Source: Deltaproteobacteria bacterium (GTDB lineage: Bacteria > Desulfobacterota > Binatia > UBA9968). From it: 64,000 nucleotides of DNA. The stretch lies in contig VGTH01000004.1 of NCBI GenBank assembly GCA_016874755.1, positions 62,001 to 126,000 on the forward strand, written 5' to 3'. The notes beneath the pieces were generated by a model. The model did not search any database. It was not told where the DNA came from and worked only from the letters and a program-made list of their open reading frames with translations. Positions 14,694 through 25,261 of the stretch are shown in pieces. A program made the translations under genes and the position numbers. Positions within the stretch are counted from its first letter, which is position 1. Every line of letters begins with the position of its first letter.

Positions 14694-16235
14694 ATGGCTA
14701 GTTCCGCATCGCCAAGCTCATGGTGCGCGCGGCGCACTCGACGATTGGCACAAATGGTTTTTTCTCTCTGTTTAGCGATTTGTTTTGTCCTGGCTTATGC
14801 CGAACCCGCAACCAGTGCGGCCGCAAAGAAAAAAGCCGGACGAAACGCGAAGGCGGCGGTGGCTTCAGTCAAGGGAGAAGCAGACAACGGGAAAAAAAAC
14901 CGGAAAACAGTAGACGAAGCGAAGAAGACCCCGCCTGCTCAGAAGGCCGCGGAACCGAGTCGCTCATTTAATATCCAGTTCCAAGAATTCAAATTGAAAA
15001 ATGGCCTGCGCGTGATTCTTGCTGAAGACCACCACGCGCCGACCTATTCTATTTGTATGACCTACAATGTCGGTTCGCGCGATGAGCGGCCGGGCCGCAC
15101 CGGCTTTGCCCATCTCTTCGAGCATATGTTGTTCCAGGGCTCGGAAAACGTCGGCAAAGGCGAGCACTTTATTCTCGTGCAAAATAACGGCGGCAGCGCC
15201 AACGGCACGACCAGCGCCGATCGCACCAACTATTTTCAAACCCTGCCGGCGAATCAACTGGAGCTGGGGATTTTTCTCGAAGCCGACCGCATGCGCGCCC
15301 CGGCGATCACCCAAGCGAATTTCGACAATCAACGGTTGACGGTGCAGGAGGAGCGGCGCCAAAGCTATGACAATCGCCCCTACGGCAAAACCTATGAAGC
15401 GGTGATCGACACTGCCTTCGATGCTTTTGGCTACAAACATTCGACCATCGGTTCGATGGAGGATTTGAACGCCGCGACGGTCGACGATGCCAAGGAGTTT
15501 TTTCGCACCTACTACGCGCCCAACAACGCGGTGCTGACGCTGGTCGGCAGTTTCGAAACCGAAGAGGCGCTCAGCTTGATCAAGAAGTATTTCGAAAAAA
15601 TTCCTGGGCACGCGCCGCCGCCGGCGCCCGAGGTGTCCGAGCCGGTCCAGCAAGCCGAGCGGCGTAGAACCATCGAAGACAATTTCGCCCAAGCAGCGCG
15701 CCTCGATATTGTTTTCAAAACCCCGCAGGGGAACACTCCCGACTGGCATGCCCTCAGCGTGTTAGGCGAAGTGCTGTCGAGCGGCGCGTCGTCGCGTCTC
15801 TATCAAAAGTTTGTCAAAGAGAAGGAGCTTGCGGTCGATGTCTCGGCCGGTCCCGAAGAGCGGCGCGGACCGACGCTGTTTTGGTTTTCTGTCACGGCGC
15901 GCCCGGGAGTTGATCTAGGGATGCTCGAACAACTCATCTACGAAGAAATTGCGCGCGTGCAGACCGAGCCGGTGGCCGACTGGGAGCTTGCTAAAGTTCG
16001 CATGCAGCTGCGCCGCCAACGCGCCCAGCAACGCTACAGCACGCGCGCCAGAGCGAACTCGCTGGGCCATTACGCGGTTTTTTACAACGAACCACAGTTG
16101 ATCAATACCGAATACGAGAAATACAACGCGGTCACCAAGGTCGATATGCAACGTGTGGCGCGGACCTATTTTCAAGAGTCGAATCGGACTGTGGTGACGA
16201 CATTGCCGAAGAGCGCTAAAGCGGGGGAGCGGTGA
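14694..16235 (+). CDS. M16 family zinc peptidase (active subunit)
   Basis: A 513-residue pitrilysin-like protease. The N-terminus has Arg-rich residues then a hydrophobic segment (MVFSLCLAICFVLAYAEPAT), so it is exported or anchored, followed by a Lys/Ala-rich linker to about residue 90. The inverted zinc motif HLFEH is at 140-144, with the distal Glu at 219/220 (VQEERRQSYDNRPYGKTYE). A second M16 repeat with the YAPNNAVLTLVGSF region follows. The partner gene overlaps its stop and lacks the zinc motif, which is the usual alpha/beta arrangement of bacterial M16 pairs. Likely a periplasmic peptide-degrading heterodimer. Confidence 0.88.
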   Translation: MASSASPSSWCARRTRRLAQMVFSLCLAICFVLAYAEPATSAAAKKKAGRNAKAAVASVKGEADNGKKNRKTVDEAKKTPPAQKAAEPSRSFNIQFQEFKLKNGLRVILAEDHHAPTYSICMTYNVGSRDERPGRTGFAHLFEHMLFQGSENVGKGEHFILVQNNGGSANGTTSADRTNYFQTLPANQLELGIFLEADRMRAPAITQANFDNQRLTVQEERRQSYDNRPYGKTYEAVIDTAFDAFGYKHSTIGSMEDLNAATVDDAKEFFRTYYAPNNAVLTLVGSFETEEALSLIKKYFEKIPGHAPPPAPEVSEPVQQAERRRTIEDNFAQAARLDIVFKTPQGNTPDWHALSVLGEVLSSGASSRLYQKFVKEKELAVDVSAGPEERRGPTLFWFSVTARPGVDLGMLEQLIYEEIARVQTEPVADWELAKVRMQLRRQRAQQRYSTRARANSLGHYAVFYNEPQLINTEYEKYNAVTKVDMQRVARTYFQESNRTVVTTLPKSAKAGER

Positions 16236-16237
16236 GG

Positions 16238-17995
16238 ATGAAACCGATGACCTTAATCTTGAGTCGGGTTTACCCCCCTTTGAAAAAGGGGAGGGGGGAT
16301 TTTCTTCACACGCAGGGCAGACAAATCCCCCTCAGTCCCCCGCTTTCAAAGAGACTGTGTCGCAATTGTCATTCTGAGCCAAAGGCGAAGAATCTGCTGC
16401 ATGCAACTGCGCGGAAAAGCAGATCCTTCGCTTACGCTCAGGATGACGAACCCGGGAATTTTGCGCATTGCGACACAGTTTCAAAGGGGGAAGGTCGGAA
16501 GCGATCACGAGCAGCGGTTTTTAGAAAACAAGTTGGATTATTGTTGCTAGCGTTTGCGATTCTATCCGGCAATGTGATCTCTGCCCAAGAAACCCTCGAA
16601 ACACCGACGAGCAAAGTCGAACGCAAAAATCGCGCACCGGTATCGCGCGAAATCCTCCGGGTAAAATTGCCCAAGCCCCAGGAGTCGCGACTGAAAAATG
16701 GTCTTACCGTGCTGATCTTAGAGGATCATCGCGCGCCGTTTGTCACGATGCAGCTTAGTATCCGCGGCGCCGGCGCGCTGTTCGAGCCTGCCAATCGCGT
16801 TGGCCTGACCAGAGCCACAGCGCAGATGCTGCACGAGGGAACCCCGACCAAAAACAGTTTGCAAATCGCCGAAGCGATCGATCGTCTCGGCGCCTCCGTC
16901 AGCGCCGGCTCGGGTTTTGGCTCCTCTGAAACGGTCTTGAGCGCGTCGGGGCTGAGTAACAATCTCGATGCCTGGTTTGGCATCGCCGCGGATATCTTGC
17001 TGCAACCGAGTTTTCCCAACGAAGAATTAGAAAAATACAAACAGCGCGAACACGTACAGCTGCGTCAGCAGCGCACCAACGCCAACTTTCTCACCAGCGA
17101 GCGCTTCAACCGCGCGGTCTACGGCGATCACCCGGCGGCCAACGTGGCGCCGACGGCGCAATCCATCGATGCGCTGACGCGCGATGCGCTTACGCAGTGG
17201 CATCGGGAGCGCTACGCGCCGCAAAACGCTATTCTGGGCGTCGCCGGCGATGTGCGCGCCAAGGAACTATTGCCCAAGCTGGAAAAATGGCTGGCTCCTT
17301 GGAAGCGCACGGAGCTAACCACGCCATTGCCGCAAAATCCCGAACCGCTGCGCGCGCGCAAAGTCTATCTTGTCGACCGGCCCAACTCGGTGCAGACCAC
17401 GGTCGCGCTGGGCAACATTGCCATCGACCGGCGCAGCCCCGATTACATCCCGATGCTGGTGATGAATCAGATCGTCGGCGGCGGCGCCACTGGGCGTTTG
17501 TTTCTCAACCTGCGCGAAGAAAAGGGCTACACCTATGGGGTCTATAGCGATTTTTCGGCGCTGCGCTATCCCGGCCCGTGGCGCGCCGGCGGCAACATGC
17601 GCACCGAGGTGACCGCGGACGCATTGGCCGAGTTTTACAATGAGATCCGCCGGATTCGCGATGAAAAAGTTCCGGCGGATGAGCTGGAAGCGAGCAAACG
17701 GTCGATCGCAGCGCGTTTCGCTTTGTCGCTGGAACAGCCGGCGACTGTGTTGGGCTTGGCTTTGCTGCGCAAGCAATACGGCTTTGCGCCTGACTATTGG
17801 GATACCTACCCGAGTAAGATCTTGGCGGTGAGAGCCGAAGACGTGCAGCGGGTGGCGCGCAAGTATCTTCACCCCGATGCCATGCAGTTGGTGGCCGTCG
17901 GCGACGCCGGAAAAATCAAAGCTGTCCTGGAAAAATACGGTCGAGTTGAGTTATTCGATAGCGACGGGCGCGCGCTCGGCGGGCCGGCGAGTTGA
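16238..17995 (+). CDS. M16 family peptidase-like protein (non-catalytic partner) with repeat insertion near its N-terminus
   Basis: About 585 residues. The M16 part starts at about residue 130 (LPKPQESRLKNGLTVLILED) and shows RAPFVTMQLSIRGAGALFEP and YAPQNAILGVAGDV; HxxEH is absent (RATAQMLHEG instead), so it should be the regulatory subunit. Residues about 12-90 are translated intergenic repeat (16270-16490), and the hydrophobic export segment VGLLLLAFAILSGNV comes only after it. ATG 16238 overlaps the region of the upstream stop. Either the true start is downstream and non-ATG, or the repeat was inserted in frame and now displaces the signal peptide. Confidence 0.8.
   Translation: MKPMTLILSRVYPPLKKGRGDFLHTQGRQIPLSPPLSKRLCRNCHSEPKAKNLLHATARKSRSFAYAQDDEPGNFAHCDTVSKGEGRKRSRAAVFRKQVGLLLLAFAILSGNVISAQETLETPTSKVERKNRAPVSREILRVKLPKPQESRLKNGLTVLILEDHRAPFVTMQLSIRGAGALFEPANRVGLTRATAQMLHEGTPTKNSLQIAEAIDRLGASVSAGSGFGSSETVLSASGLSNNLDAWFGIAADILLQPSFPNEELEKYKQREHVQLRQQRTNANFLTSERFNRAVYGDHPAANVAPTAQSIDALTRDALTQWHRERYAPQNAILGVAGDVRAKELLPKLEKWLAPWKRTELTTPLPQNPEPLRARKVYLVDRPNSVQTTVALGNIAIDRRSPDYIPMLVMNQIVGGGATGRLFLNLREEKGYTYGVYSDFSALRYPGPWRAGGNMRTEVTADALAEFYNEIRRIRDEKVPADELEASKRSIAARFALSLEQPATVLGLALLRKQYGFAPDYWDTYPSKILAVRAEDVQRVARKYLHPDAMQLVAVGDAGKIKAVLEKYGRVELFDSDGRALGGPAS
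16270..16490. repeat. Composite palindromic repeat: outer C/G-tract element interrupted by an inner one
   Basis: The outer element has CCCCCCTTTGAAAAAGGGG at the left, AAATCCCCCTCAGTCCCCC in the middle, and resumes as TTCAAAGGGGGAAGG at the right. The same family occurs at 25026-25225. The inner element (16354-16479) splits it. The whole block lies inside the open reading frame of the second M16 gene. Confidence 0.75.
16354..16479. mobile_element. MITE-like 126-bp element with 13-bp perfect inverted ends
   Basis: The ends are ACTGTGTCGCAAT (16354-16366) and ATTGCGACACAGT (16467-16479). Flanks TTCAAAGAG (16345-16353) and TTCAAAGGG (16480-16488) look like a 9-bp target duplication with one mismatch. 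The interior is itself palindromic (TCATTCTGAGC / GCTCAGGATGA and GCGAAGAATCTGCT / AGCAGATCCTTCGC). No transposase is encoded, so movement would need one in trans. Confidence 0.6.
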
Positions 17996-24931: not shown

Positions 24932-25261
24932 GATTTTCTCCTTGGAAAGTATTTTTTAAATTTTTCGGTTATTCAGGTCGTTCAAAAGGTCCCGAGAGCT
25001 CAAGAGGGTTTCAACACAAGACAATGTCACCCCTATATCCCCTTTTCAAAGGCGGAAAGATGCAGGTTGACTCCGAGTTCCCCTCTTTGGAAAAGAGGGG
25101 TTAGGGGAGATTTCCGGGGTGCCGGTGGAGAGGCTCATGATTTTTCACATCCTCAGATAGATCAAAAGCATTTTCTTGCACGCGGGCCAATCCCCCCTCA
25201 CCCGCTTTTTCAAAGGGGGGAACCCGGATCAACTTACGCTGCATCACTCTTTATCTGTCGA
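24932..25261. repeat. Repeat-filled spacer: G/C-tract palindromes
   Basis: No gene. From about 25026 to 25225 lie three linked blocks of the same family as the outer element at 16270-16490: ACCCCTATATCCCCTTTTCAAAGGC, AGTTCCCCTCTTTGGAAAAGAGGGGTTAGGGG and AATCCCCCCTCACCCGC followed by TTTTTCAAAGGGGGG. Arms in both orientations allow large hairpins. They sit between two co-directional genes. Confidence 0.65.

Follow-up and report, generated by a model that had tools for sequence, protein, structure and literature searches.

Palindromic targets are the subject of a remark in ISfinder on IS1182. Within the same family, the closest described systems are the staphylococcal elements IS1272 and TnSha1, which insert at inverted repeats that are unrelated in sequence and in several cases are terminators, the stem-loop being reported as deleted or replaced and no target duplication being formed (PMC5678879, PMC4923244). 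The same accounts contain a sentence of Wan et al.'s own on palindromic targets of IS1182, a model (A) in which the ends of IS1272 may be 16 bp long, and a pathway (c), drawn as a possible alternative outcome, in which joining takes place at the loop and only the loop is duplicated (PMC5678879, PMC4923244). Another member of the family, ISPse1 from Paracoccus, is 1,653 bp long, with ends of 16/16 bp and a duplication of 4 bp (PMC3281130); the word stem “palindrom” is absent from that paper's main text. From the IS3 family comes ISPsy8, which enters a predicted Pseudomonas REP hairpin on its axis of symmetry, with formation of a 3-bp direct repeat (PMC1525189). Finally, the Rickettsia palindromic elements (RPEs) are presented as short palindromic repeats that lie in frame within genes and recur in many ORFs (PMC10969869).

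The locus described here, at the head of an M16 protease gene in a draft genome of 5,560,410 bases in 101 contigs, resembles IS1272 and TnSha1 in its IS1182 affiliation and in having inverted-repeat targets of unrelated sequence, but differs from them in sparing the arms and duplicating 3 bp. With ISPse1 it has in common 16-bp ends and a short duplication, which is 3 bp here as against 4 bp there. ISPsy8, being a full IS of the IS3 family tied to one REP class, differs from what is found here, namely IS1182 ends, several unrelated palindromes and mostly miniature elements. The present copy is like the RPEs in lying in frame within a gene, and unlike them in that its ends tie it to IS1182 and a coding role is proposed for a minority of copies. 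Most of what the locus shows belongs to kinds already on record, among them MITEs that lie in frame and IS1182 elements that seek out stem-loops; what is new is a stem-keeping, apex-duplicating mode of insertion across many genomes, and in the literature searched, which lay largely outside the subscription journals, no report of IS1182-derived MITEs at hairpin apices was found among the results listed. In that literature hairpin-directed IS1182 transposition is described for IS1272/TnSha1, with loss of the hairpin. Elements that spare the hairpin and duplicate 3 bp at its tip would be a sign that this type of transposase can strike the loop and not the foot of the stem; they would put many natural insertion sites on offer for testing loop attack, and would show how palindromes may come to be nested and how a gene may gain a repeat-coded front end without frameshift.

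The inner element and its IS1182 ends

The inner block of the locus is, with good probability, a 132-bp non-autonomous IS1182-family MITE that has inserted near a hairpin apex, a statement that covers both its identity and its mode of insertion. Table 1 collects the features of the locus, with positions numbered along the whole 64,000-nucleotide stretch of DNA that was analysed (the window).

Table 1 Features at the head of the M16 protease gene, in window positions.
Feature	Position	Strand	Remarks
Upstream M16 peptidase gene	14694..16235	+	TGA at 16233-16235, 2 nt 5' of ATG16238
GGGGGAG, ribosome-binding-like	16223..16229	+	8 nt 5' of ATG16238; seen directly
Insert-bearing M16 peptidase ORF	16238..17995	+	585 aa counted from ATG16238; PF00675 and PF05193 domains
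Outer double-hairpin repeat, left part	16273..16350	+	First hairpin, spacer, 5' arm of second hairpin, first AAA
Target duplication AAA, left copy	16348..16350	+	
IS1182-type miniature element, 132 bp	16351..16482	+	From comparison of copies and shared ends
Left terminal inverted repeat GAGACTGTGTCGCAAT, 16 bp	16351..16366	+	
Interior palindromic repeat TGTCATTCTGAGC...GCTCAGGATGAC	16367..16447	+	Found also without IS1182 ends
Right terminal inverted repeat	16467..16482	-	ATTGCGACACAGTTTC on + strand; 1 difference from left end
Target duplication AAA, right copy	16483..16485	+	
Second hairpin of outer repeat, remaining 3' arm GGGGGAAG	16486..16493	+	
Hydrophobic segment LLLLAFAILSGNVI, signal-peptide-like (putative)	16538..16579	+	Begins at residue 101 of long form

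An earlier note on this DNA had described a C/G palindrome split by a 126-bp element with perfect 13-bp ends and a near-perfect 9-bp flank duplication. The split palindrome is indeed there, running from 16273, and the 13-bp ends are perfect (16354-16366 and 16467-16479, 126 bp overall), but the element is really 132 bp long with 16-bp ends, and the 9-bp duplication does not survive comparison with other copies. The inner element has at least 40 dispersed matches in its own genome (40 scored of 88 first-look candidates), which together with places from a partly listed pattern search make at least 44 distinct copies. Both ends are recognisable (at most 4 mismatches) in 15 of these 44, and these form the set used for the duplication and palindrome tests; the other 29, which lack one or both recognisable ends, were excluded, among them L081 and L091, where there are possible duplications by eye. 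A 13-bp end combined with a perfect 9-bp duplication occurs in none of the 15, while a 16-bp end with a perfect 3-bp duplication occurs in 7 of them (shuffle mean 0.79, with none of 500 shuffles reaching 7). Since it is the latter arrangement that fits the copies, the window element is taken to be the 132 bp bounded by AAA on either side. All that speaks for the 126-bp anatomy is the agreement of TTCAAAGAG and TTCAAAGGG at 8 of 9 positions in the window alone; against it stand both the copies and a full-length relative (below) with 16-bp ends, making it very improbable indeed. The apparent 9-bp match is explained by the sequence of the target, TTC-AAA-GGG, together with that of the element, which starts with GAG and ends with TTC, so that the two stretches parse as TTC+AAA+GAG (the last triplet being the element end) and TTC (the element end)+AAA+GGG respectively. 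The element end is TTC in the window, and CTC in most other copies with both ends. An Rfam search over 16100-16700 gave no RNA family at E<=1.

The affiliation with IS1182 comes from larger elements having the same ends. In a genome of the same taxonomic family (G015, locus L255) there is a 1,696-bp element, both 16-bp ends of which are identical to GAGACTGTGTCGCAAT and which contains a single ORF of more than 200 aa (three + frames scanned). Its 481-aa protein scores 368.8 bits to NF033551, the IS1182 family transposase model (cut-off 270), and has the domains DUF772, DDE_Tnp_1_6 and DDE_Tnp_1. The element (1391-3086 in L255) has no 3-bp duplication, its flanking triplets being TCA and TTG; over about 24 bp the arms beside it come close to being perfect reverse complements. 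In the window's own genome (G000) a DUF772 domain search gave two matches. One lies within a 442-bp internally deleted remnant (L254/L087, G000:C9:6143-6584) that has these ends too, with a single mismatch in the right one, around an IS1182 N-terminal domain; its 70.6 bits to NF033551 fall under the whole-protein cut-off because the fragment has just 92 aa. This remnant sits in a C/G palindrome, CCTCCCCCGAGA ... GCGGGAGAGG. Around the second match (C8) the locus fetched contains no such end at up to 4 mismatches, and the search of G000 yielded no intact transposase of this lineage. A tblastn search with the L255 protein over loci L102 and later gave three further cases, L256, L165 and L173 (148, 64 and 35 residues aligned at 54-60% identity), in which an end adjoins an IS1182-like N-terminus; 14 loci with more distant homologues (23-36%) have no such end within 3 mismatches.

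The window element is 132 bp long, is multicopy (the at least 44 distinct copies in its own genome, 15 with both ends), contains no transposase gene, and has ends in common with the autonomous L255 element and, bar one mismatch, with the 442-bp remnant. Because its ends are those of IS1182 transposase elements it is filed as an IS1182-family MITE; with the full element it was seen to share the ends but not the interior. It would presumably have been mobilised in trans, the 16-bp ends serving as substrate for an IS1182-type transposase. IS1031, IS3 and IS30, which had been candidate sources of the 3-bp duplication, were dropped once the IS1182 transposase had been identified. In addition, six longer or compound end pairs in GTDB loci (four of them 1.2-3.0 kb) were taken as separate elements, because no transposase could be recognised in their translations by eye.

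Palindromic targets and the position of the apex

GTDB contigs were scanned for the exact 16-mer, yielding at least 120 stretches chosen by the end alone and not by the target. Those listed have titles mostly of Deltaproteobacteria type (Syntrophaceae, Smithella, Desulfobacteraceae and others), with some from Nitrospirae or Nitrospira, Tectomicrobia, Bacteroidetes, Omnitrophota and others. Inward-facing pairs 41-599 bp in size were counted if their ends had at most 3 mismatches and both flanks at least 25 bases, which among the matches listed gives n=73 (74 without the flank condition).

Among these 73 listed elements, a perfect 3-bp duplication is present in 37 (1000 shuffles give a mean of 3.4 and a maximum of 10) and a palindromy score of at least 7 in 36, compared with 14.6% for shuffled partners and 1.5% for random sites; conversely, 36 of the 73 in the same listed set are without a perfect duplication and 37 score below 7. 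Some of the palindromy is common to all sites, which are C-rich on the left and G-rich on the right, and it is this that appears in the 14.6% with shuffled partners. A palindrome scoring at least 6 surrounds 29 of the 37 duplication-bearing elements among the matches listed, and in these 29 the distance from its centre to the middle of the duplication is at most 1 bp in 20 cases and at most 2 bp in 23, where palindromes at random sites give 16%. In some cases the duplicated triplet is exactly the loop, as in L135, CTCTCCCC-TCT-GGGGAGAG, and L176 (TTG). What is recognised may be the hairpin itself rather than its sequence. Replacement of the stem-loop, as for IS1272, is not what these listed elements display, given that 37 of the 73 are duplicated and 29 of them have arms scoring at least 6; on this analysis they look like the hypothetical loop-duplication branch of the model of Wan et al. 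In five GTDB loci (L138, L164, L183, L193 and L198) more than two IS1182-type ends (at most 3 mismatches) occur within about 1.4 kb, which suggests tandem or nested elements.

In the window's own genome the preference for palindromes and the apex signal are weak. Scores of at least 6 are found for 5 of the 15 copies (shuffled partners 14.5%, random sites 3.7%) and of at least 7 for 2 of 15 (8.0% and 1.1% respectively), and of the 7 copies having a duplication only 2 are within 2 bp of the centre of the best palindrome. The window copy itself lies 3 bp from this centre.

The outer repeat and the nesting of palindromes

The outer repeat has 56 own-genome matches at E<=0.1, a figure that counts several places twice, once in each orientation. 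When 17 own copies were aligned with the empty site of the window it was seen to consist of two inverted palindromes and a spacer, as in a REPIN; as regards a RAYT partner, there are three Y1_Tnp genes in the genome, and none of them has the repeat within 3 mismatches in the loci fetched. Further matches to the outer C/G palindrome lie elsewhere in the window, at 25038-25226 (G000:C4:87189-87226 corresponding to window 25189-25226). The same combination of outer repeat and element recurs in a second nest in this genome (G000:C2, L002/L037).

Given that the genome is a draft in 101 contigs, the nested structure could in principle be an artefact of assembly between repeats. However, the window copy is unique (the next best being 95% identical), it is situated inside a contig of 198,826 bp, and on either side of it the outer arms carry on as expected, so that such an origin is scarcely credible. 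As for how the nest arose, the double-hairpin repeat was probably already in place at the start of the M16 protease gene when the MITE entered its second hairpin close to the apex, an insertion that would have spared the hairpin arms and duplicated 3 bp.

The interior of the element is also found by itself. Inner-element matches at E<=0.001 occur in 18 of 58 genomes (the window's own plus relatives), many of the matches listed covering interior parts only. Within the window's own genome 6 of the 44 copies (L014, L070, L072, L075, L080 and L084) match the interior alone (from about query position 12-14 to 94-95), and L014 is 93.8% identical to it and has no IS1182 end. As the interior is itself a dispersed palindrome, the window contains a palindrome within an element within a palindrome. 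Among the GTDB matches listed, an interior resembling CATTCTGAGC is present in 13 of 74 end-bounded elements, the others having different sequences; loose clustering of interiors (matches of at least 30 bases) gives clusters of 29, 25, 5 and 4 out of the 73 listed elements.

A more general proposal, put forward tentatively and with the odds perhaps slightly against it, is that widespread IS1182-type MITEs recognise hairpins by shape, insert at the apex and duplicate only the loop. As their interiors are often dispersed palindromes, repeated rounds would build nested hairpins, and insertions at the heads of genes would give rise to translated N-terminal extensions.

Predicted consequences for the M16 protease

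The earlier note had the block open in the frame of the M16 protease, as it proves to be, and had estimated that some 80 residues derive from repeats. That estimate is near the mark: the present figure is about 74 codons, of which 45 belong to the element plus its duplication and about 29 to the outer repeat (the latter by manual count). The element and duplication would together have added 135 bp (45 codons) having no stop in the frame used, and it is by virtue of that length and stop-free frame that the gene would have stayed open. The open frame says little by itself, because 4 of the 6 frames lack stops in similar copies (the four most similar of 132 bp) and a length of 135 bp leaves the frame unchanged.

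In 13 of 14 orthologues from the family (outside G000, with starts predicted and not annotated) the first in-frame ATG lies 32-50 codons 5' of a conserved S/TKVER-type motif. G013, having no motif match, was excluded from this N-terminus count; two of the orthologues are less certain, namely L280 (where the motif search anchored 3 codons later, at ERK) and L278 (where the frame is open far upstream). In the window the distance from ATG16238 to the motif is 124 codons, which becomes 79 without the element and about 50 without the outer repeat as well. The hydrophobic segment equals that of the orthologues in strength, with a mean hydropathy of 2.42 as against 1.75-2.95 (a simple Kyte-Doolittle mean), but it begins at residue 101 as against residues 5-19. 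In the orthologue of one congener (L042/L273, G001:C78) there is one internal TAA according to the search tool.

The earlier note had offered two readings, exonisation of the repeat or a start that has moved downstream, and had regarded the former as rare. Fusions of MITEs in frame are already known (PMC10969869), and of the two readings it is exonisation that the evidence favours, for a product predicted from the sequence. Under a downstream start, the repeats would be an untranslated leader and the true start would be TTG16541, TTG16544, GTG16574 or some rarer codon. These three codons do exist, and of the 44 own copies the 11 that stand at the start of an open frame 100 codons long or longer (the window copy included) all have some later ATG, GTG or TTG. 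Between the insert and the hydrophobic segment, however, there is no ATG or GTG, and all three candidates are within that segment, so that a start at any of them would remove the basic N-region; it would moreover fall in the hydrophobic core, with no clear ribosome-binding stretch, and would be at odds with the position of the first ATG in the 13 orthologues. A downstream start must accordingly be considered distinctly improbable. Because the N-termini of the orthologues are short, and because of the absence of ATG or GTG just noted, an N-terminal extension is likelier, as a matter of predicted translation; translation would most likely still begin at the old ATG (16238) and place about 74 repeat-encoded residues before the hydrophobic export segment. 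Taken as a statement about the coding part as a whole, translation from ATG16238 with a repeat-encoded extension is a reasonably probable prediction.

It might also be supposed that the gene is undergoing decay or has been silenced. In that case the nested hairpins would act on the transcript between the two M16 genes as a site of termination or processing, and chance would account for the open frame. The element does fold strongly as single-stranded DNA (-35.7 kcal/mol, z -6.0, with none of 200 shuffles as stable), the chance of an open frame is raised by the stop-free copies and frame-neutral length already mentioned, and the genome has other M16 paralogues. On the other hand, some 500 codons 3' of the insert are intact and include both Pfam domains, and silencing or decay of the gene is unlikely.

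The predicted N-terminal extension of the M16 protease may be set beside three other genes of the same genome, in which, by eye, diverged copies of the element lie in open frame before signal-peptide-like stretches (L079 in G000:C35, L013 in G000:C27 and L071 in G000:C3). For L013 the start codon could, again by eye, be an ATG within the element.
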